A DNA stretch of 64,000 bases from NCBI GenBank assembly GCA_020425605.1, contig JAGQRH010000004.1, positions 1-64,000 on the forward strand, read 5' to 3'. The first letter of the stretch is position 1; each line of letters begins with the position of its first letter. A model generated the notes under the pieces. That model did not search any database and was not told the DNA's origin. It worked only from the letters and a program-made list of their open reading frames with translations. The translations under genes were made by a program, and so were the position numbers. Positions 3 to 8,626 of this stretch are shown here, piece by piece. The DNA comes from Planctomycetota bacterium. Lineage in GTDB: Bacteria; Planctomycetota; UBA8742; UBA2392.

Positions 3-245
3 ATGGCGAACCGGTTCCCAAAGAAGAAGTACGGCCAACGCTGGCAGGTGGAGTCGCTGTTCAGCCAGGACAAGCGCCGGTTCGGAAGCCAGTCGTCGGC
101 CAGCAGCATCAACGGCCAGTTCGGCGAGCTGTGCCTGCGAGTGCTCGCGCACAACATAGCACTGCTTTTGCGTCGCCGGATTCAGCAACCCCCAAACCCG
201 CTTGAAATGTATGCTTTCAACGGAGCAACCCTGACCCCTTTTTAG
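3..245 (+). pseudogene. DDE transposase, C-terminal part (cut by window edge)
   Basis: Only the last 80 residues are in the window, so the first Met here is probably internal. The segment RWQVESLFSQDKRRFG matches the end of IS4/IS5-type DDE transposases; the Glu in QVES is the likely third catalytic acid, followed by the Lys/Arg-rich helix and a hydrophobic tail (LRVLAHNIALLLRRR). The stop codon lies inside the repeat at 231-249, as when a transposase gene runs into the terminal repeat of its own insertion sequence. Whether the gene is intact upstream cannot be seen. The family within IS4/IS5 is uncertain. Confidence 0.65.
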
Positions 246-249
246 TTCC
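231..249 (+). repeat. Island repeat copy A (CTGACCCC...AGTTCC)
   Basis: The sequence CTGACCCCTTTTTAGTTCC recurs at 2432-2450 and, inverted with a few changes, at 2001-2019 and 6108-6126. Here it contains the stop codon of the transposase fragment, suggesting it is the right terminal inverted repeat of that insertion sequence. The base context upstream (CAACC) differs from the GTAGC of the 2427 copy. Confidence 0.7.
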
Positions 250-288
250 GAGAGCCGGCGGTCCTCGCAGGAGCTTCTCTAGAACGGA

Positions 289-900
289 ATGGCGATTGGT
301 GCCGAAATGAGAATCATGTACCAGGTAAAGCCAACCTACGAGGGTTACTGGTGGGCGGAATTTGTCAATGACGAAGACCGACAGTATTTTGGTGTCGCAC
401 ATCCGCGCCCAGCAGCCTATTTGACCTTGCGTGAGCAATGGCGTGCCCGGCACTTAAGGTACTACAACAATCCAGAGTTCCCGGGATTTGATCCTGCGTC
501 AGGTCAGTGCCCTGTTTTTCTGAGCTTTGACAGCGAGTTCGCCGTCTCGTCCCAGAAAGCTGAAGAAGTAATCCGAACGCTCGGCGTGGAGTGTGAACTT
601 CTTCCTATGATGGTCTCGGGTGAAGATTATCAGTGGCTACGACTTCCAGTGTTGCAGAATACTGTGGATATCACCAAATCTACGTACGACACGTACTCTA
701 CCGGAGATATTCGCAACATCACCTCCTACTGGTTCAACTATGACAGCATCGGCGAACATCAACTCTTCCGAATTATCGAGTACCGGTCAACTCGGATATT
801 CTGTACAGAACAGTTCAGAGAGACGTATCACGACTGCAGGTACACAGGGATGCGATTCCTCGAAGTTGATACCGCTCAGCCTCAGTCGCAAGGCCCGTGA
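289..900 (+). CDS. Imm11-like (DUF1629) orphan immunity protein
   Basis: This is a 203-residue soluble protein with no signal peptide. Its C-terminal third (HQLFRIIEYRSTRIFCTEQF, then a TGMRFLEV segment) has the pattern of the Imm11/DUF1629 family: a serine- or cysteine-flanked beta strand, then 'receptor-like' residues and a final TG-x-x-F. Imm11 proteins are usually partners of polymorphic toxins, but no toxin gene is next to it. The start at 289 has a weak upstream AGGAG about 15 nt away; Met at 307 is an alternative. Base composition is visibly lower in GC than the genes after 6.2 kb, consistent with transfer. The family call is by eye and moderate. Confidence 0.55.
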   Translation: MAIGAEMRIMYQVKPTYEGYWWAEFVNDEDRQYFGVAHPRPAAYLTLREQWRARHLRYYNNPEFPGFDPASGQCPVFLSFDSEFAVSSQKAEEVIRTLGVECELLPMMVSGEDYQWLRLPVLQNTVDITKSTYDTYSTGDIRNITSYWFNYDSIGEHQLFRIIEYRSTRIFCTEQFRETYHDCRYTGMRFLEVDTAQPQSQGP

Positions 901-1066
901 TTTGTGCGGGCCCACGCGGTGGGTTCGAAGCGGTCGTCCTGGCCTGCGCCTGTACGAGGACCTCTCCTGCGGGGGAGAGCTTCAACCACACGGGGACGAA
1001 CAGGCGCCCGGCACCGGCCAGTGTGGCGTTGAAACTTCAAAGTCCGTGGTCAGGAGAGACTTGATC

Positions 1067-1798
1067 ATGCCCCCACACTTCACTCGGATGGCGTCCATCG
1101 CCGCGCTTCTGGCCCTAGGCGTCGCGCTACTACTTTTCGGACCAATGTTGCGTCACGCAGTGGTGAGTGCCGAGGACGCGAATGCCGGCAATTCGCGTGC
1201 TCCCAAGGCGTATTCCAAAGCGGTCGCATACAAGACTGGTCCGCTTCCCGAAGGCACACGTGTCTTCCTGTTCTGGTTTCAGCAGGACCACAGCACTGTG
1301 TATTGTGAATTGACCCCCATCACGGAGTCCGAGTACGGGCTCATGGCCCCTGGCTTCTCGCTGATTCCGGAAGAAGTGCATGTTCAGCTGATCTCCGGCA
1401 ACCGCTGTTACGTATTCGAGGCGGCCGTCGATTCAAGTCGAGTGGTCGACATTTCGCAGCAATGCGGCAAGGCAGTCGAGTCATGGGGCAAGCTCCCGTC
1501 GATTGGAAGTCCCGGAGTAGAACGAGTTTGGTTTAGTGTGAAAGACGCCGATCTGGAAGGTGACAACCGGACAGCGACGGCCGAGATTCTCGACAAGAAA
1601 GTGGCGGATGCGCCCTACGCGATACACTTGATGCGGCGCGGAAACGGCGAGTACATCGGTTGTGTAGACATCACCGAGGGATCTGTCATCGAGACAGTGG
1701 AAGTTAGCGTCACCATCACCGAGGAGGGTTCAACTCTGGAGCGACGGTTGATGGGAACTGTGCTCAGTCGCACCCCGGTGGTTCCGCCAGTGCGCTAG
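1067..1798 (+). CDS. Hypothetical secreted or membrane-anchored protein
   Basis: A 243-residue protein with a hydrophobic segment at about residues 8-27 (MASIAALLALGVALLLFGPM), so probably exported or anchored in the inner membrane. The start at 1067 is preceded by CAGGAG at good spacing; the open frame continues further upstream but overlaps the previous gene and is unlikely to be translated. The rest is soluble, with three or four Cys residues (YCELTP, NRCYVF, QQCGKA, IGCVDI) that could form disulfides outside the cytoplasm. I do not recognise a family. It lies between an Imm11-like gene and a large palindrome. Confidence 0.6.
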   Translation: MPPHFTRMASIAALLALGVALLLFGPMLRHAVVSAEDANAGNSRAPKAYSKAVAYKTGPLPEGTRVFLFWFQQDHSTVYCELTPITESEYGLMAPGFSLIPEEVHVQLISGNRCYVFEAAVDSSRVVDISQQCGKAVESWGKLPSIGSPGVERVWFSVKDADLEGDNRTATAEILDKKVADAPYAIHLMRRGNGEYIGCVDITEGSVIETVEVSVTITEEGSTLERRLMGTVLSRTPVVPPVR

Positions 1799-1858
1799 GC
1801 GTTGCTGGGCGCAATGAGAGAGGAAATCCCGGGCGACGGCCCGCGCGTGACCGTCATT

Positions 1859-1884
1859 CCTGAGCGTCACGCGTGACGCTCAGG
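1859..1884. repeat. Perfect 26-nt palindrome
   Basis: The half CCTGAGCGTCACG is followed directly by its exact reverse complement CGTGACGCTCAGG. It sits 60 nt after the stop of the 243-aa gene. There is no T-run, so a classical intrinsic terminator is unlikely; a protein-binding dyad or a REP-like hairpin is possible. Confidence 0.6.
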
Positions 1885-1906
1885 TTCGTTCGCTTCGCGA
1901 ACTTTC

Positions 1907-2011
1907 GACAGCCCGGCGCCGGTCACCACGGACGAGGTCTACGACAACGCCGTGCCCAACGGCAACAACCCCACCGCACAGGCCTGCGTCGACCAGGAAG
2001 GGAACCAATAA
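1907..2011 (+). pseudogene. 3' fragment of an unidentified gene, cut by repeat copy D
   Basis: In one frame the DNA encodes a 34-residue protein-like tail beginning DSPAPVTTDEVYDNAVPNGN and ending VDQEGNQ. The last codons and the stop lie inside the island repeat at 2001-2024, so the true C-terminus appears to have been replaced by the repeat. No start codon or upstream body is present. The parent gene is not recognised. Confidence 0.35.
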
Positions 2012-2450
2012 GGGGTCGGGCTACTTCTTGTTGCTGTATTTCTAGCCCTTTCCTGGCTCCAGCTCCTTCATGGGGTATCCTGCGTGGTGGCGTTACCTGA
2101 CATTCCAGGCCCGGCCGTCCCTCGGGCCGAGTGTGTCGGGCAGCGGTACTTGCAGGTACTGCAGTGCAGTCATGCCGACGTCGATCAGGCCGAAGCGTGC
2201 AGACTCGAACTTGCGGTTGCAGAACAACACGCCCGGCACGAGTCTGCGCGGTGCTTGCACGCCAGTGAGAACGTACGCAGAAACGCGGCGTAGTCGTTGG
2301 GCCTATGGGAAACAACCGCCCGGCCGTTGCCCCGTTTGATAACATGGCAGCAAAGTCGGCAGGATCAATGCAAGCACAACAGGCATAGGGAAAGGCCACC
2401 ACCCCACATAACTAGGGCCACTAACAGTAGCCTGACCCCTTTTTAGTTCC
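2001..2450. mobile_element. 450-bp segment bounded by inverted 24-nt repeats (MITE-like)
   Basis: The left end (2001-2024, ending GGGGTCGGGCTAC) and right end (2427-2450, starting GTAGCCTGACCCC) are imperfect inverted repeats of one another, with three differences by eye. Inside, 2025-2243 is a copy of the DNA just downstream of and within the 3' end of the phosphodiesterase gene at 6132-6350; 2244-2426 has no recognised content. The arrangement fits a non-autonomous element related to the transposase at the left edge that captured a gene end, or a scar of recombination between repeat copies. Confidence 0.5.
2093..2243 (-). pseudogene. Duplicated 3' end of the phosphodiesterase gene
   Basis: This stretch encodes the last ~49 codons of the phosphodiesterase at 6200-8566, including the LIDVGMTALQYLQVP segment and the same TAA stop. 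Together with flanking DNA, the duplicated block is 2001-2243, matching 6108-6350 with no net gaps and about 21 mismatches counted by eye (roughly 91% identity). It has no start or promoter and is a gene fragment. Confidence 0.8.
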
Positions 2451-2518
2451 AAAGAAGACTGGATCGCAGAAGACTGGGAGCAATACGAAAAGGGCTGTTT
2501 GAGATGCCAAAGAAGCTC

Positions 2519-2530
2519 GGGGGGGGGGGG
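2519..2530 (+). repeat. G12 homopolymer
   Basis: Twelve consecutive G residues lie about 40 nt before the preferred start of the leucine-rich-repeat gene. Tracts of this length can slip in replication, or can be an assembly artefact. A second run of ten G occurs at 4545-4554 in the IS66 remnant. Confidence 0.8.
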
Positions 2531-2570
2531 CAGGGCGACCGGGAGCCAGTCAAAAAGGAGAATGACAGCG

Positions 2571-4439
2571 ATGACTACCTCAGTTGCGACAACTAGGTTA
2601 ACGTTCTCGGTTCCAACAGGAACAACTGACAATCACTTGGTTTGTTCTCGTGATACGGCCTTGCTCACGCCTACAACCTCCGCGTCTGCGTTGCACCTTC
2701 TCCCCTTTGCCAGAATAGAAGGGCCACTCGCAGCGCTAACGTACTCTGGATGTGCAAATGCTTGGTTGTTGACCCTAGGTTTCTTGGTCGTGGTGGTGGC
2801 GCCAGGTTGCCTGCCGGCGCAAGGGGCTCGTTTATCGATCCCCGTCCAAGCGTCGGTTCGGGTAGTTTCATCGGTCGACGAGATCAACGCGCTGCCTGAG
2901 TCAACGGCAGCCATTGAACTTGTAGGTGGTACCAGCAAAGAATTTGCTGCGCTTGGTCGCCTTCGTAACGTCAGATGGCTGGGTCTTCGCCGTCCTATAG
3001 ACTTTTCGGACGTTGAGTGTGCGGTTCTCAGCGATCTCCCGCTACTAGAAAGGCTGGACCTGATTTCTGTTCCTCCCCTGCCTGATTCCAAGAGGTTAGC
3101 CCCGCTAACGCAGTGCCCACGGCTGAAAGCGCTCAACATCTTGGGAAGCGGCATTTCCGCTGATGAGGTCGTGCAGTTTAGTGCAAAGTCAAAAGTGCTA
3201 AGAGAACTGAGCTGCCCATCCGCAATATTTGACGAAGAAGCGGCATGCGCCTTGCGCGAGAAGGCGTCCATTACGCAGCTCACGCTAAGCGGAAACATCT
3301 TGCCGCAAAAACTCAGCATGCTAGCTAGCCTGTCTACACTTACAGACTTGCGGTTGTCAGGCCGACTATCACAATTCGCCGGTAAGGACGCGCTTGCCGT
3401 ATTGGCGGGGTTGACTGAGCTTCAACACCTTGAGCTTCCTCAACGACTGCGATGCAATGAGATAGCGCTAGAATGGTTGCAGGAGTTGCCTCGCCTGCGA
3501 GAGTTGGAAGTCAATTCGTCGACAGGACTCGGGGCAGCTTTGGGAACCTTGGCCGGTAGCCTCGCTTCACTGGAGTCCCTCTCTATCTATAATTGCGAAA
3601 TCGACCAAGTGTTTTTCGATCAGCTTGCTCGATCATCGACTATAACCTCTCTGTCTATTCGAAACAGCAGTTCTGTGGGCTTTCCTCCGACTTCCGCCAC
3701 ATCGGTGCCTGAGGATGCGTGGCTAGTTGAACTGTCGGCGCTAGCGACAGTTCAGACACTTTGGCTGGATGAGTGCCAGAACGTTACCGACGTTGGCCTG
3801 CAAGCCTTGCGGAGACTGGAGTCACTAAGCTCCCTAACTCTGAATGGATGCGTAAAGTGCGGGGACATCGCCATCGCCTGCATTGGCGAATTGGAAGGGC
3901 TCGTAAGCCTTCGACTCAGCGATGTACGCTTGGCTTCTGCGGAAGGATTCGCCCCTCTTGCGAAGTTGGGCAAGCTCGAAACGCTTTCTCTCCGCAGCTG
4001 TAGTTGCGCGCGTTTGGATGTACTGACGGACAATGCAACCTGGAATCTGCAGAGCCTAGTCTTAGACGATTGTAGGCTACTCACAACACGTCAATACCAG
4101 TTCGTGGAGCGAATCACCGACCTAAGGGAGCTATCGCTGGCGGGTTGCTCTGGGTTGACTACGGAGGTCATGAGGGGACTGGTCAAACATCTTCCAGATC
4201 TAGCCGTGCTGTGCGTGGCATCCACCGATGTTAGCGATGAAGGCCTCACCGCTCTCCGGAAGGCAGGCAAGCTGAAGTCTTTGTCTCTGAGCTATTGCCG
4301 CAACTTAGGTTGTGAGAAAGTATTAGAAGTGGTGGCGGAACTCCCGCTAACTGACCTGTACGTTTACGGTGACCTATTTTCGTCAGACTGTGTCAAGAAG
4401 ATGCAGGCGGTGCTACCGGGGTGTCGTATCTGGGAATGA
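2571..4439 (+). CDS. Leucine-rich-repeat protein with membrane segment
   Basis: About 622 residues. The body carries many leucine-rich repeats of the cysteine-containing (AMN1/F-box-like) type, for example LSSLTLNGCVKCGDIAIACI and LKSLSLSYCRNLGCEKVLEV, each ~25 residues. A hydrophobic stretch (AWLLTLGFLVVVVAPGCLPA) near residue 62-81 probably exports or anchors it, with the repeats outside. The start is uncertain: ATG 2571 has AAGGAG 10 nt upstream, while the open frame extends back to 2499 across a G12 run. The repeats suggest protein binding; no enzymatic domain is seen. GC is clearly below that of the core genes, and it lies between repeat copies B and C, so it is likely imported. Confidence 0.7.
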   Translation: MTTSVATTRLTFSVPTGTTDNHLVCSRDTALLTPTTSASALHLLPFARIEGPLAALTYSGCANAWLLTLGFLVVVVAPGCLPAQGARLSIPVQASVRVVSSVDEINALPESTAAIELVGGTSKEFAALGRLRNVRWLGLRRPIDFSDVECAVLSDLPLLERLDLISVPPLPDSKRLAPLTQCPRLKALNILGSGISADEVVQFSAKSKVLRELSCPSAIFDEEAACALREKASITQLTLSGNILPQKLSMLASLSTLTDLRLSGRLSQFAGKDALAVLAGLTELQHLELPQRLRCNEIALEWLQELPRLRELEVNSSTGLGAALGTLAGSLASLESLSIYNCEIDQVFFDQLARSSTITSLSIRNSSSVGFPPTSATSVPEDAWLVELSALATVQTLWLDECQNVTDVGLQALRRLESLSSLTLNGCVKCGDIAIACIGELEGLVSLRLSDVRLASAEGFAPLAKLGKLETLSLRSCSCARLDVLTDNATWNLQSLVLDDCRLLTTRQYQFVERITDLRELSLAGCSGLTTEVMRGLVKHLPDLAVLCVASTDVSDEGLTALRKAGKLKSLSLSYCRNLGCEKVLEVVAELPLTDLYVYGDLFSSDCVKKMQAVLPGCRIWE

Positions 4440-4544
4440 TTCTCCCCTTACCGATTACGTCGAACTGGAGTATCCGTCCCGCCCGGCACAAATTGACTTA
4501 TACTACGTGCGATGACGTCGGCATGTTGGTGTTTGTTAGCGGCT

Positions 4545-4990
4545 GGGGGGGGGGCGTAGCTGGGAGATCCCGGGCGGGATCGCAACGATTTCGGGGGTGT
4601 AGGCCTGCAGCCACGCGTCGCAAGGAAGCCTCTTGTGGACTTTCCTAGGACGCGCTGAAAGCAGTTGGGCCAGCATGGTACACGTAGGGATTCACGCCGC
4701 GGCGTTCGGCGGTCTGGATCAGGGTGTAGATCGTCATGGCGCCGCGACCGCCCTTTCCGGAGCCCGCGAACAGCCAGAACTTGCGGCCTCTGACGACGTC
4801 CTTCAACGTTTTCTCTACGAAGTTGTTGTCGATGCCGAGGTAACCCTGCATGATGTGGCGCGACAGCGTGCAGAAGATGAGATTGGCGTAGGCAATCGCC
4901 TCGCCGAGGGCGCTCTTGGGCAGGAAGCCCGCTTTTGTGGCGATGCGCCACTTGCGCCGGGCCAGGTTCACCTCAACGAGGCTGGTCAAC
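4545..4990 (-). pseudogene. IS66-family transposase remnant
   Basis: The minus strand encodes the C-terminal region of an IS66 transposase: LPKSALGEAIAYA, GYLGIDNNFVEKTLK (the DNN-x-x-E block with the last catalytic Glu) and GRKFWLFAGSGKGG. The N-terminal two thirds are absent. Around 4690 the homology moves to another frame: after PYVYHA the pattern continues as MLAQLLSARP in the +1 frame, so a base has been lost. The gene is dead. It lies between the LRR gene and a putative lipoprotein gene. Confidence 0.8.
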
Positions 4991-5122
4991 GAGTTCCTAC
5001 ATACACCAGCTCTCGCAGCGCGAAGCACACTCGCTTCACCCACGACAAGCGCTGAACGCACCCAACTGGACGGACACATGGTGGAGGGACATTCCTGACG
5101 GTGTTTTAGTGAAGCTTGGTAG

Positions 5123-5932
5123 TTACTCAGGCAGATAGCCACCAACCCCGCAAATGCCAACGTCCGGCATCCACTGAAAATACATCACACCTACGTTCTC
5201 GTTCTCAATGTCCACGCCGGCGGAGTAATACACACGCGCATTGAATGCTTTCGAAGGTTGGCCATCCCGGCCAACATAGTGTCGTTCGCGTAATTCTATT
5301 CGCCTGACCCAGGGGAAGTGGGCCACCCTGTTGCGGTAGTCCTCGTGCACTACGAGGGCCTTCGCAAATGCAAGAGTCTCCGCTCCCCATCCGCTACGGA
5401 CTTCGAAGTCACTCTCGGCCGAAAGGTGCCCATCTACATTGATCTCACGCACAGGCCAAAGCGAGGCATCCTCCGGCGCCTCGCCACTAGTCTGAGCCAA
5501 CTTTAGCCAATACCCGTGCAGCCAAGCATCATCCAGCAATAGTCTCTCAGCCATGCGCCTATGGGATACTGGAACACGAAAACGATAAACCCTACTCCCA
5601 TCATGTGTGCTAGCAATGTCATTCGCGGCGAGAAGGTTCTCTATGTTGTGCACCGCAATTCGATCGGAGCCAAGGCAACTTGCCACCAAGACCATCTCAA
5701 CGGGCTGGGCCATCTCCCCGCCAGCACGGTCATGCTCAGTAACAATCGCCGCTTGTCTCGGAGTTTCTGGTAGGTCGCCGTTGAAACTTGCAGAGCTCTT
5801 GGAAGTCGTATCTGCACAAACGGACTCGGTGTCGGCAGACGAATTGTGACACGATATGACGACAACTCCTAACATAACCGGCAGGACCAGTTGCGTGACA
5901 GATGCGAGAATAGCTGAGCATGGGGGCTTCAT
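5123..5932 (-). CDS. Putative lipoprotein of unknown function
   Basis: About 269 residues from ATG 5932. That start overlaps the TGA of an upstream gene remnant in an ATGA arrangement, which is why it is preferred over the Met six codons earlier (5950). The N-terminus has a hydrophobic run ending VVVISC, a plausible lipobox with Cys as the lipid-modified residue. The middle is soluble, with LLAANDIASTHDGSRVYRFR resembling the compact alpha/beta repeat of DUF2007-like domains; the C-terminal half, rich in aromatic residues, is unrecognised. It belongs to the lower-GC island. Confidence 0.5.
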   Translation of the reverse strand: MKPPCSAILASVTQLVLPVMLGVVVISCHNSSADTESVCADTTSKSSASFNGDLPETPRQAAIVTEHDRAGGEMAQPVEMVLVASCLGSDRIAVHNIENLLAANDIASTHDGSRVYRFRVPVSHRRMAERLLLDDAWLHGYWLKLAQTSGEAPEDASLWPVREINVDGHLSAESDFEVRSGWGAETLAFAKALVVHEDYRNRVAHFPWVRRIELRERHYVGRDGQPSKAFNARVYYSAGVDIENENVGVMYFQWMPDVGICGVGGYLPE

Positions 5933-6107
5933 TCGCCGTCTCCTACCCATGGTTCGTCATCAAAACCGTCGTCAGCCGGATACTCGACTCCATGATTCTC
6001 GCCAGTCTTGCCGTCCGTAATGTCCCAGGTAAGCTTGATTCTTGCCTAGAAGTCACTTTGTTTGCAGCCCGACGTGCATCCATTCTTGATGCGGATATAT
6101 ATCCATA
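5929..6107 (-). pseudogene. 3' remnant of a gene coupled to the downstream lipoprotein gene
   Basis: Reading the minus strand from repeat copy C, one frame gives IYIRIKNGCTSGCKQSDF, a stop (6046-6048), then ARIKLTWDITDGKTG and the acidic tail YPADDGFDDEPWVGDGE. Its TGA overlaps the ATG of the 269-aa gene as ATGA, the layout of a translationally coupled operon. The 5' part is missing at the repeat boundary, and the in-frame stop shows decay. Family unknown. Confidence 0.4.
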
Positions 6108-6131
6108 GGAACTAAACAGGGGTCAGGCTAC
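6108..6131 (-). repeat. Island repeat copy C, island/core boundary
   Basis: GGAACTAAAC followed by AGGGGTCAGGCTAC; inverted relative to copies A and B. DNA on its right (6132 onward) is the phosphodiesterase 3' flank and gene, DNA on its left is island sequence with a truncated gene. It therefore marks the junction. Confidence 0.65.
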
Positions 6132-6199
6132 TTTTTGTTGCTGTATTTCTAGGCATTTCCTGGCTCCAGCTGCTTCATGGGGCATCCTGCGTGGTTGCG

Positions 6200-8566
6200 T
6201 TACCTGACATTCCATGCGCGGGCATCCTTCGGGCCCAGCGTGTCGGGCAGCGGTACTTGCAGGTACTGCAGTGCAGTCATGCCGACGTCGATCAGTCCGA
6301 AGCGTGCAGACTCGAGCTTGCGGTTGCTGAACAGCACGCCCGGCACGAGTTTGGGGTCGTAGCTGCAGTGGTCGCCGGACCAGTTCCTTAGATTGTCGGC
6401 GATGATCGGCTCGTCGGCGCCGCCTAGGCTGGTCTGCCAGCTTACCCGGTAGCCGCGGGCGTAGCCGATCTGCAGGTCGCCGGCCTCGCCCAGCCGCTCG
6501 CCTTCCCAGATGTCTTCGCGACGCTTAACGACGCTGATGACCGGCACATAACCGTGCGCCTGATCGTCAGTCAGCTTCGACAACCTGGCGATGATCTCGG
6601 TCTTCAGCGCCTCGGCCTCCTCCTCTGTGACGATGCCGTTCGGCTCGCGACCTCTTAAATTGATGTAGATCTTGCTGAGCCCGAGGGCGTACGCGCGTGT
6701 CTTGCTCCAGTCGTATGGACCGTAGTACCCGCTTTCATTGTCGAAGAGCTGCGCCATGGTCGGCGCGCCGGTTTTCTCCTTCAGCACGAGGTAGCCGTTC
6801 TCCTGCAGCCAGCGATTCAGGTTCACGGCGCGATAGAACGGAAGAAAGCCGTGGTCGCTGCAGATCACCAACAGCGCGTCTTTCGGCAGTGCGTGCATGA
6901 CCTCGCCGATCAGCCCGTCGTACTTCACATAAAAGTCGTGGATCGCCGTCTTCCACTCGGCCGGCGCGTGCGGGTCGTGATTGGGGTGCTTCTCATCCAT
7001 GTGCCGCCACATCATGTGGGAGACCCGGTCGATCTCGTAGGTGAACGCGACCAGCAGGTCCCATTCATCGCTGCGCCCGAGCAGCCCGAGTATCTGCGCG
7101 CGCTTCTCATCGAAGCTGAGCTGGCAGGTTTCCATGAACGTGCCGTCGTCGATCACGCCGTCCTGCAGCGCACTTGTGGCTTCCGCCCAGCCGACGGTCT
7201 CGAACATTCCGTACTCGTCGGCGAGCCATGCGCCGAACTCCAGCGGCTGCGAGATTGCGAACTGCGGCAGTTGCTCTTTCGGGTCGAAGTTCACCGGTGT
7301 CGCATACAGGCGAACCTGCCGCCCGCCCGCCAGCAGCTTGAAGCTGACGGTGCCGTGAAGCTCGATCAGTCCCCCAATGTCGTAGACGACGCGCATGTGC
7401 CGAACCCACTCGCCGACCTTGAGCGGAACTTCCGACTGCTCCACGACATTGTCGGCGGGGAGCTTGAGCACGACTCCCCCACCCTCGGCGCGCGTCACCG
7501 TGAACGGGATTTCTTCGCGCGGCATCAGATCGAGTTCGTGGTCCTCCCACTGCTTCCAGCGCGCTTTGTCAAACTTGGCCGGGGGTCCCAGCAGGCGGGC
7601 CTGCGCCACGTCGCCGTCGAACTTGAGGTCCTCGATGCGCCCGGACATCTCGGTCAGCCCGCCGGCCAGCTCGTTGTGCGGCTCGCTGAACAGCGTGTAG
7701 GTGTGGAACGTGCCCATGGCGTCCGGCGTCGCGAGCCCGGTGGTCATCTTGGATTCCGCCAGCTCCTCGGCCGCGGGCCAATTCACGGGTGCGCCGATCA
7801 CCCTGCAGCGCACGCCGTGATCATCCGCGATTTTCCAGAACGTGGTGCCTGTGCGGGAGGTAACCGGCTGCGGCATGCTTTCGGGCAGGTTGTTCACAAA
7901 CGCAAACAGCCCGACTGCCAGCGCGAGAAACGGGATCAGCCAGTACGCACGTTTCAGTCTGTTGCGCACAAGAAAGTAGCCGAGCAGCGGCATCGCAACC
8001 GCAATTCCCGCCAGCGCGATCAGGGCCCAGCGCCGGTTGTCCAGCCCGCCAAGCGGCGAGGCCAGAATCATCCCGATCGCAATGGTCGCCGGTATCAGCG
8101 GATGCACGGGCCGCGCCTTGCGTGGCAACAGTGCAGCCATGTGCGCGAACAGGTACGCAAACAAGAGGACGCACGCGGCCAGCGCCAATGCAATCGGCAA
8201 TCGTTGCCACGGCGTACCGCCGATCAACGGCTGCTCATTGGGGCGGGCCAGCGAAAGCTCCGGCTCGTAAGTACCTTCCCTGCGCTTCAGGAACCCGAAG
8301 ATGCCCGTCTTGCCGGGGTTCAGCCCGGTGGTCATGGTGGACCATGCGGCCGGGCTCATGGGCGGATACGATGTCTCGAGATGTCGGTAAGTGCCTTCGT
8401 CGCGCAGCTTTTTGAAGTTGGGCAGGTCGCCCGCATCCATCCACTTCTCGGCCAGGCGGGTGTCTACGGCATCGATACCGAGCACGACCGCCTTGCGCGG
8501 AGCCTCCTGCGCGAACATCGGCGTGGCAAGAAGCAGCAGCAGGATCAGCGTGGAAGCGTTGCGCAT
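6200..8566 (-). CDS. Alkaline-phosphatase-superfamily phosphodiesterase, membrane-anchored
   Basis: 788 residues from ATG 8566, which gives a clean signal peptide (MRNASTLILLLLLATPMFAQ). The open frame extends to 8614, but a TAGTAT -10-like hexamer lies inside that extension. Motifs follow the type I phosphodiesterase/nucleotide pyrophosphatase fold: VVLGIDAVD (first metal aspartate), SPAAWSTMTTGLNPGKTG (nucleophile Thr region) and ICSDHGF (metal Asp/His). An insert of about four hydrophobic helices (residues ~130-240) separates the first catalytic block from the rest, so the protein is probably membrane-bound with a periplasmic catalytic domain. The substrate is unknown. It is divergent from the AAA+ regulator gene, and its 3' end is duplicated at 2093-2243. 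Confidence 0.8.
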   Translation of the reverse strand: MRNASTLILLLLLATPMFAQEAPRKAVVLGIDAVDTRLAEKWMDAGDLPNFKKLRDEGTYRHLETSYPPMSPAAWSTMTTGLNPGKTGIFGFLKRREGTYEPELSLARPNEQPLIGGTPWQRLPIALALAACVLLFAYLFAHMAALLPRKARPVHPLIPATIAIGMILASPLGGLDNRRWALIALAGIAVAMPLLGYFLVRNRLKRAYWLIPFLALAVGLFAFVNNLPESMPQPVTSRTGTTFWKIADDHGVRCRVIGAPVNWPAAEELAESKMTTGLATPDAMGTFHTYTLFSEPHNELAGGLTEMSGRIEDLKFDGDVAQARLLGPPAKFDKARWKQWEDHELDLMPREEIPFTVTRAEGGGVVLKLPADNVVEQSEVPLKVGEWVRHMRVVYDIGGLIELHGTVSFKLLAGGRQVRLYATPVNFDPKEQLPQFAISQPLEFGAWLADEYGMFETVGWAEATSALQDGVIDDGTFMETCQLSFDEKRAQILGLLGRSDEWDLLVAFTYEIDRVSHMMWRHMDEKHPNHDPHAPAEWKTAIHDFYVKYDGLIGEVMHALPKDALLVICSDHGFLPFYRAVNLNRWLQENGYLVLKEKTGAPTMAQLFDNESGYYGPYDWSKTRAYALGLSKIYINLRGREPNGIVTEEEAEALKTEIIARLSKLTDDQAHGYVPVISVVKRREDIWEGERLGEAGDLQIGYARGYRVSWQTSLGGADEPIIADNLRNWSGDHCSYDPKLVPGVLFSNRKLESARFGLIDVGMTALQYLQVPLPDTLGPKDARAWNVR

Positions 8567-8626
8567 GGGAACCGGAATCACTAATACTAGGGGTCCGCTC
8601 ACGAACCCTATCACGGCCGGAAAAAC

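Follow-up and report, generated by a model that had tools for sequence, protein, structure and literature searches.

Repetitive extragenic palindromic (REP)-associated tyrosine transposases (RAYTs) are usually discussed as enzymes that became domesticated and whose activity disperses tiny palindromes. Nuclease activity of RAYT on REPs was reported in E. coli, as cited in PMC6006769, and TIRYT elements were reported to carry a GGGGWSAS motif (PMC3733652). In the present work we analyze a repeat occurring four times near the left edge of a 64,000-nucleotide stretch of a Planctomycetota genome (hereafter the window; genome G000, contig C109, positions 1-64000), which coincides with the contig end. 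The repeat consists of the first 20 nt of the ~60-nt left end (LE) of a RAYT/TIRYT element, whose transposase is of the HUH Y1 type, and RAYT is its main owner. Elements of this kind are already known. What is new is the link of RAYT ends with exchanged blocks of defence and immunity genes, a pattern that is well supported in one genus.

The 19-nt word CTGACCCCTTTTTAGTTCC, which reads GGAACTAAAAAGGGGTCAGG on the opposite strand, matches the window exactly at 231-249 and 2432-2450 on the forward strand, and with one and three mismatches at 6108-6126 and 2001-2019 on the reverse strand. Only 0.01 matches were expected by chance, and four were reached in none of 100 shuffles. The corresponding 20-nt copies, named A (230-249), D (2001-2020), B (2431-2450) and C (6108-6127), alternate in orientation, as an earlier sequence-only reading had correctly noted. 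The repeat is not confined to the window, given that the whole genome contains 14 copies with at most three mismatches, while a reversed-pattern control gave one. The length of 20-24 nt first assigned to it falls short at copies D and C, which extend further and open a direct repeat of 246 bp (2001-2246 and 6108-6353, 91% identity) reaching into the gene at 6203-8614 and containing its 3′ tail. In addition, a gammaproteobacterial metagenome-assembled genome (L031, 1691-1760) has a palindrome of 67 nt, GAACTAAAAAGGGGTCAGG...CCTGACCCCTTTTTAGTTC, whose arms are the same 19-mer, and therefore the word is not restricted to Planctomycetota.

Alignment of 20 ends revealed conservation along ~60 nt, with the consensus GGAACTAAAAAGGGGTCAGGCTACTTTTTGTTGCCCTATTT...GGGGTTTGTAGC. 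In contig C76 of the same genome, the word precedes by ~60 nt the start codon of a gene for a Y1/HUH transposase with NHFH and YVERNP motifs (Y1_Tnp, 1.8e-16). This protein reached 80.0 bits, with a cut-off of 80, on NF047646, the NCBIfam profile of the REP-associated tyrosine transposase, and three further RAYTs scored 70-77 bits, slightly below that cut-off; the RAYTs of G004 and G005 share 95% identity with one another. The same layout was found in other planctomycete genomes, where the word is backed by complete RAYTs or by their 5′ fragments, and in several species the LE stands immediately upstream of complete RAYT genes. Copy B in the window also runs on into a decayed RAYT 5′ fragment, which had gone unremarked. 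Thus, of the two owners between which the sequence-only reading had hesitated, the RAYT is the right one for most copies. The outermost part of the LE is GGAAC, with RAYT genes, RAYT fragments, IS5 copies or short filler on its inner side. This boundary is supported by contig C98, where the LE follows an IS5 left-end remnant at a junction (CTTCCGG|GGAACC) interrupting a sequence that is continuous in C82 (CTTCCGGGTTGCC).

The LE motif GGGGTCAG fits GGGGWSAS, and in the relative G005 (contig C244) a complete RAYT gene has inverted repeats on both sides, lying between LE-like ends at L170 8571(+) and 9495(-); the G000 copy in C76 is cut by the contig start. The C76 RAYT is followed on its 3′ side by a REP hairpin with a GGGGTCAGGC core (folding z-score of -8.65) that recurs at many other sites, so that cognate REP hairpins both flank the RAYT gene and are dispersed through the genome. 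The GT[AG]G tetranucleotide expected at the hairpin base in RAYT systems was read as GTAG beside CCTGACCCC on the strand opposite the LE, and the REP hairpins did not have it at their base. No conserved sequence that could act as target site was visible outside GGAAC among the 14 copies of G000, and the insertion 3′ of a fixed tetra- or pentanucleotide target typical of IS200/IS605 was not observed. A form composed of an LE, ~37-45 RAYT codons and a REP hairpin was seen in two species (L187, 124-372; L177, 3625-3830) and may represent a non-autonomous derivative of the RAYT element that arose by deletion and recurs. LE units were also found duplicated in tandem (L152, 4789-5199, 205 bp, 99.5%; L158, 2794-2903, 54 bp, 96%).

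The arrangement of the ends was examined in six genomes of the genus by means of a sequence-only LE model, trained partly on these copies; per genome, scoring was limited to 150 of ~1,500-2,100 candidates. At least 49 ends were found at E<=1e-3. Among the scored candidates of the six species, in which neighbouring pairs share ends, GGAAC pointed inward in 8 of 12 pairs of neighbouring LEs separated by 450-5000 bp, compared with 25% expected (binomial p=0.003), and in 13 of 18 pairs at E<=0.04 (p=3e-5). Inward pairs were spaced by 0.6-3.7 kb, and none was closer than 450 bp at E<=0.04, as the short spacer of a REPIN would require. The blocks enclosed by them had a guanine plus cytosine (GC) content of 50-60%, with one exception of 62% (G001, contig C58, which was kept in the count and may not be cargo), and nearly all flanks were at or above 60%. 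Considering 40 LEs, the 600 nt outside GGAAC averaged 55.9% GC vs. 62.2% inside (p=2e-6), and LEs lacking a recognised partner showed the same step (57.6 vs. 62.3%, p=0.003). REP hairpins with the same core, used as control, gave 64.0 vs. 62.7% (not significant), and thus the bias is not a trait of any GGGGTCAGGC word. Since only one of three LE loci from other genera presented the GC step (L033; it was reversed in L162), we restrict the pattern to a single genus.

The cargo found at LE loci included an Imm11 gene (in the window), a YezG-like protein just below the cut-off, DUF7919, a cytosine methylase with Vsr, Ppl/TrlF, leucine-rich repeat (LRR) proteins and small lipoproteins; among them, LRR proteins, methylase/Vsr and one lipoprotein family recurred at unrelated loci. 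At two orthologous sites the cargo differs between species. At the 3′ end of a conserved TPR gene, G000 and G005 have in common an LE(+) at the gene tail, a RAYT-LE(-) opposite to it and an SPFH gene beyond, while the block between the ends differs; no LE was present at this site in G001-G004. The second site adjoins the 3′ end of an acyltransferase gene, where three distinct AT-rich blocks were found in G005, G004 and G003, and no block of such kind in G001 and G002. In G004, a Ppl/TrlF-family anti-phage ATPase (L177, 841-3603; PADLOC 2.9e-150) comes directly after the acyltransferase gene and is followed by an LE and a RAYT fragment. The G003 block (L200, 1462-4024) encodes Vsr, a predicted restriction endonuclease and a cytosine methylase. 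Beside an Rrf2-like gene, G002 and G003 have a common RAYT unit, whose LE faces a lipoprotein block in G003 and in G002 borders directly on 124 bp copied from the tail of the Rrf2 gene.

Resident genes have clusters of RAYT ends and truncated units at their 3′ ends, and copies of the 3′ tail of the neighbour gene were found beside or near LEs for the phosphodiesterase-like gene of the window, the acyltransferase gene (G005), the Rrf2-like gene (G002) and a thiolase-like gene (C78). In G004 (contig C278) the LE is duplicated together with its adjoining sequence, and in the window, G004 and G002 one edge of the duplication falls at GGAAC. Conventional short target duplications were not found, and gene-tail duplications of ~120-250 bp adjoin the LEs instead. 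The features of the window are as follows (strands of the copies are those of the LE).

3 to 245, forward strand: C-terminal end of an IS5-family DDE transposase (Pfam DDE_Tnp_1 3.6e-5, NCBIfam IS5 1.3e-9), cut by the contig start, its frame stopping in copy A.
230 to 249, reverse strand: copy A, the outer 20 nt of the LE fused to an IS5 end (GTTGCTCCGTTGAAA) and not to CTACTTT.
250 to 2000: cargo block 1, 57% GC (window 61%), faced by the GGAAC ends of A and D.
289 to 900, forward strand: Imm11-family immunity protein gene of cargo 1 (Pfam PF07791, 27.1 bits, cut-off 22.1).
1067 to 1798, forward strand: gene of cargo 1 for a predicted membrane or secreted protein, with no significant Pfam or NCBIfam match and no family.
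2001 to 2246, forward strand: copy D, starting exactly at GGAAC, with the LE from 2001 to ~2045 and then the duplicated 3′ tail of the phosphodiesterase-like gene (codons 754-804, 88% identity).
2252 to 2386, reverse strand: decayed RAYT 5′ fragment, ~codons 1-45 (tblastn, 58% identity, 6e-11).
2390 to 2450, reverse strand: copy B, the LE upstream of the RAYT fragment, from the alignment of 20 LEs (repeat at 2431-2450).
2451 to 6107: cargo block 2, 55% GC, faced by the GGAAC ends of B and C.
2499 to 4439, forward strand: LRR protein gene of cargo 2 (Pfam LRR families), whose true start is probably further in.
4645 to 4951, reverse strand: C-terminal remnant of an IS66 transposase in cargo 2 (Pfam DDE_Tnp_IS66 8.5e-12).
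5123 to 5950, reverse strand: open reading frame of cargo 2 for a predicted lipoprotein, with no Pfam or NCBIfam family.
6108 to 6150, forward strand: copy C, the LE directly past the 3′ end of the phosphodiesterase-like gene (repeat at 6108-6127).
6200 to 8614, reverse strand: resident phosphodiesterase-like gene (Pfam Phosphodiest 5.8e-32), with the island at its 3′ end.

The transposase had been said to stop inside copy A, and indeed its last residues are encoded by the repeat; only its 80-residue C-terminal end is present. Further IS5-family transposase fragments were located in contigs C76, C66 and C131. Genes had also been proposed to be cut exactly at copies D and C. This holds at D, where the duplicate is a fragment, and fails at C, where the gene is complete (804 aa). 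The match to its orthologues spans essentially the full length in four of five relatives, and no cassette of the kind present in the window was read at their tails in any of the five. The IS66 remnant lies between the LRR and lipoprotein genes, and therefore cargo 2 may itself be composite; this block also has two runs of at least 10 G, at 2519-2530 and 4545-4554. A perfect palindrome of 26 nt (1859-1884) lies between cargo 1 and copy D.

In attention to these data, the ends are probably those of TIRtron/REPtron-like RAYT elements bounding exchanged cassettes, with RAYT nicking at the LE promoting cassette turnover. The RAYT would nick single-stranded DNA at the LE, and the nicked ends, together with flanking homology from RAYT sequences and gene tails, might then permit a homology-assisted or one-ended insertion leading to the gain, swap or stacking of cassettes. 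The window could reflect two successive events of this type at the 3′ end of the phosphodiesterase-like gene, one for cargo 1 (A-D) and one for cargo 2 (B-C), with the D-B unit between both blocks made up of the tail copy and the RAYT fragment, with an LE at both ends. The sequence-only reading had regarded the repeats as recombination points used to accrete cargo, and the pattern that this implies is found in the paired ends, the cargo differences at orthologous sites and the tail duplications; as to mechanism, we infer RAYT-driven exchange from them, and they suggest it weakly. A RAYT/TIRYT-driven cassette system, whose ends serve as entry points and boundaries for inserting, swapping and stacking immunity and anti-phage genes at the 3′ ends of conserved genes, is put forward tentatively and we regard it as unlikely.

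It must be noted that several points weigh against such a role of the RAYT. Where a RAYT unit is complete, its gene and the cargo lie on opposite sides of the LE, and therefore the cargo is outside the element. Single-strand folding of the LE gave only weak structures, no better than those of shuffled sequences, and a strong hairpin was rejected. No LE could be recognised at the G003 block of the acyltransferase site, and neither a clean empty site with both LEs, nor a conserved target site, nor an identical cassette at two sites was found in the genomes compared. A literature search for RAYTs or REPINs linked with cargo or defence islands, with most subscription journals outside its coverage, yielded no paper.

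It is possible, if rather doubtful, that the RAYT units are passengers that pile up at gene 3′ ends acting as variable hot spots, and that genes for defence and immunity arrive by ordinary homologous or illegitimate recombination in which LEs are uninvolved. The G003 block is the main evidence in this direction, REPs were reported mostly downstream of coding regions (PMC3733652), and all the assemblies are metagenome-assembled genomes in which many LEs are single. However, passengers would not account for the inward-facing bias of the LEs, for a GC step that follows LE orientation and is missing at REP hairpins, or for duplication edges placed exactly at GGAAC. It is quite improbable that cargo-bearing units, i.e., large REPIN-like or passenger transposons moved whole by the RAYT, have the paired ends as their true terminal inverted repeats. 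The CCTGACCCCTTTTTAGTTCC/GGAACTAAAAAGGGGTCAGG pair is palindromic when cargo is absent, paired inverted ends are alike over up to 45 nt at 93% and certain families of cargo reappear at LE loci unrelated to each other, but the position of the gene in complete RAYT units, with GGAAC outermost, argues against it, as does the lack of any cassette with the same two ends at two sites.

The insertion-sequence reading of the repeat was correct to the extent that some IS5 ends carry or adjoin the word: copy A is fused to an IS5-family end, and both termini of a complete IS5 in G003 bear it (L152, 3067 and 4087). Nevertheless, the IS5 ends of G000 at C82, C66 and C98 are without the full word, so not every IS5 copy bears the repeat as its terminus and IS5 as sole owner was rejected. 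Moreover, LEs beside complete RAYTs in several species share the word and a further 40 nt, and a terminal inverted repeat of an IS5-family insertion sequence, with a secondary RAYT link, is thus very hard to sustain. With the RAYT as main owner, IS5 copies may lie inside RAYT ends, or IS5 may have acquired them.

RAYTs would have a selectable role if their ends organise how defence and immunity genes turn over, and in that case GGAACTAAAAAGGGGTCAGG would be a sequence landmark for finding further cassettes in planctomycete accessory islands. With respect to known systems, IS5 elements resemble the present case in that their ends are joined to the repeat, once at both ends, but other IS5 ends are without it and most copies are joined to RAYTs or gene tails. 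Accessory genes between copies of one element, and duplicated 3′ tails, are likewise seen in composite transposons and in integrative islands at gene 3′ ends; here, however, block edges coincide with RAYT ends, and we noticed no integrase in those blocks that were examined, no dedicated attC/IntI search being included. TIRtron/TIRYT elements (PMC3733652) likewise form a genome-dispersed repeat family with a tyrosine (HUH) transposase gene between GGGGWSAS inverted repeats, and the accessible part of that report describes no exchanged accessory blocks such as those faced by the ends studied here. Finally, RAYT/TnpAREP systems with REPs and REPINs (PMC6006769; PMC3116915) have in common the scattered REP hairpins with a GGGGTCAGGC core flanking the RAYT gene and the inverted pairing of ends; the spacers of REPINs are short, whereas in this genus whole genes lie between inverted ends that are longer than a REP.

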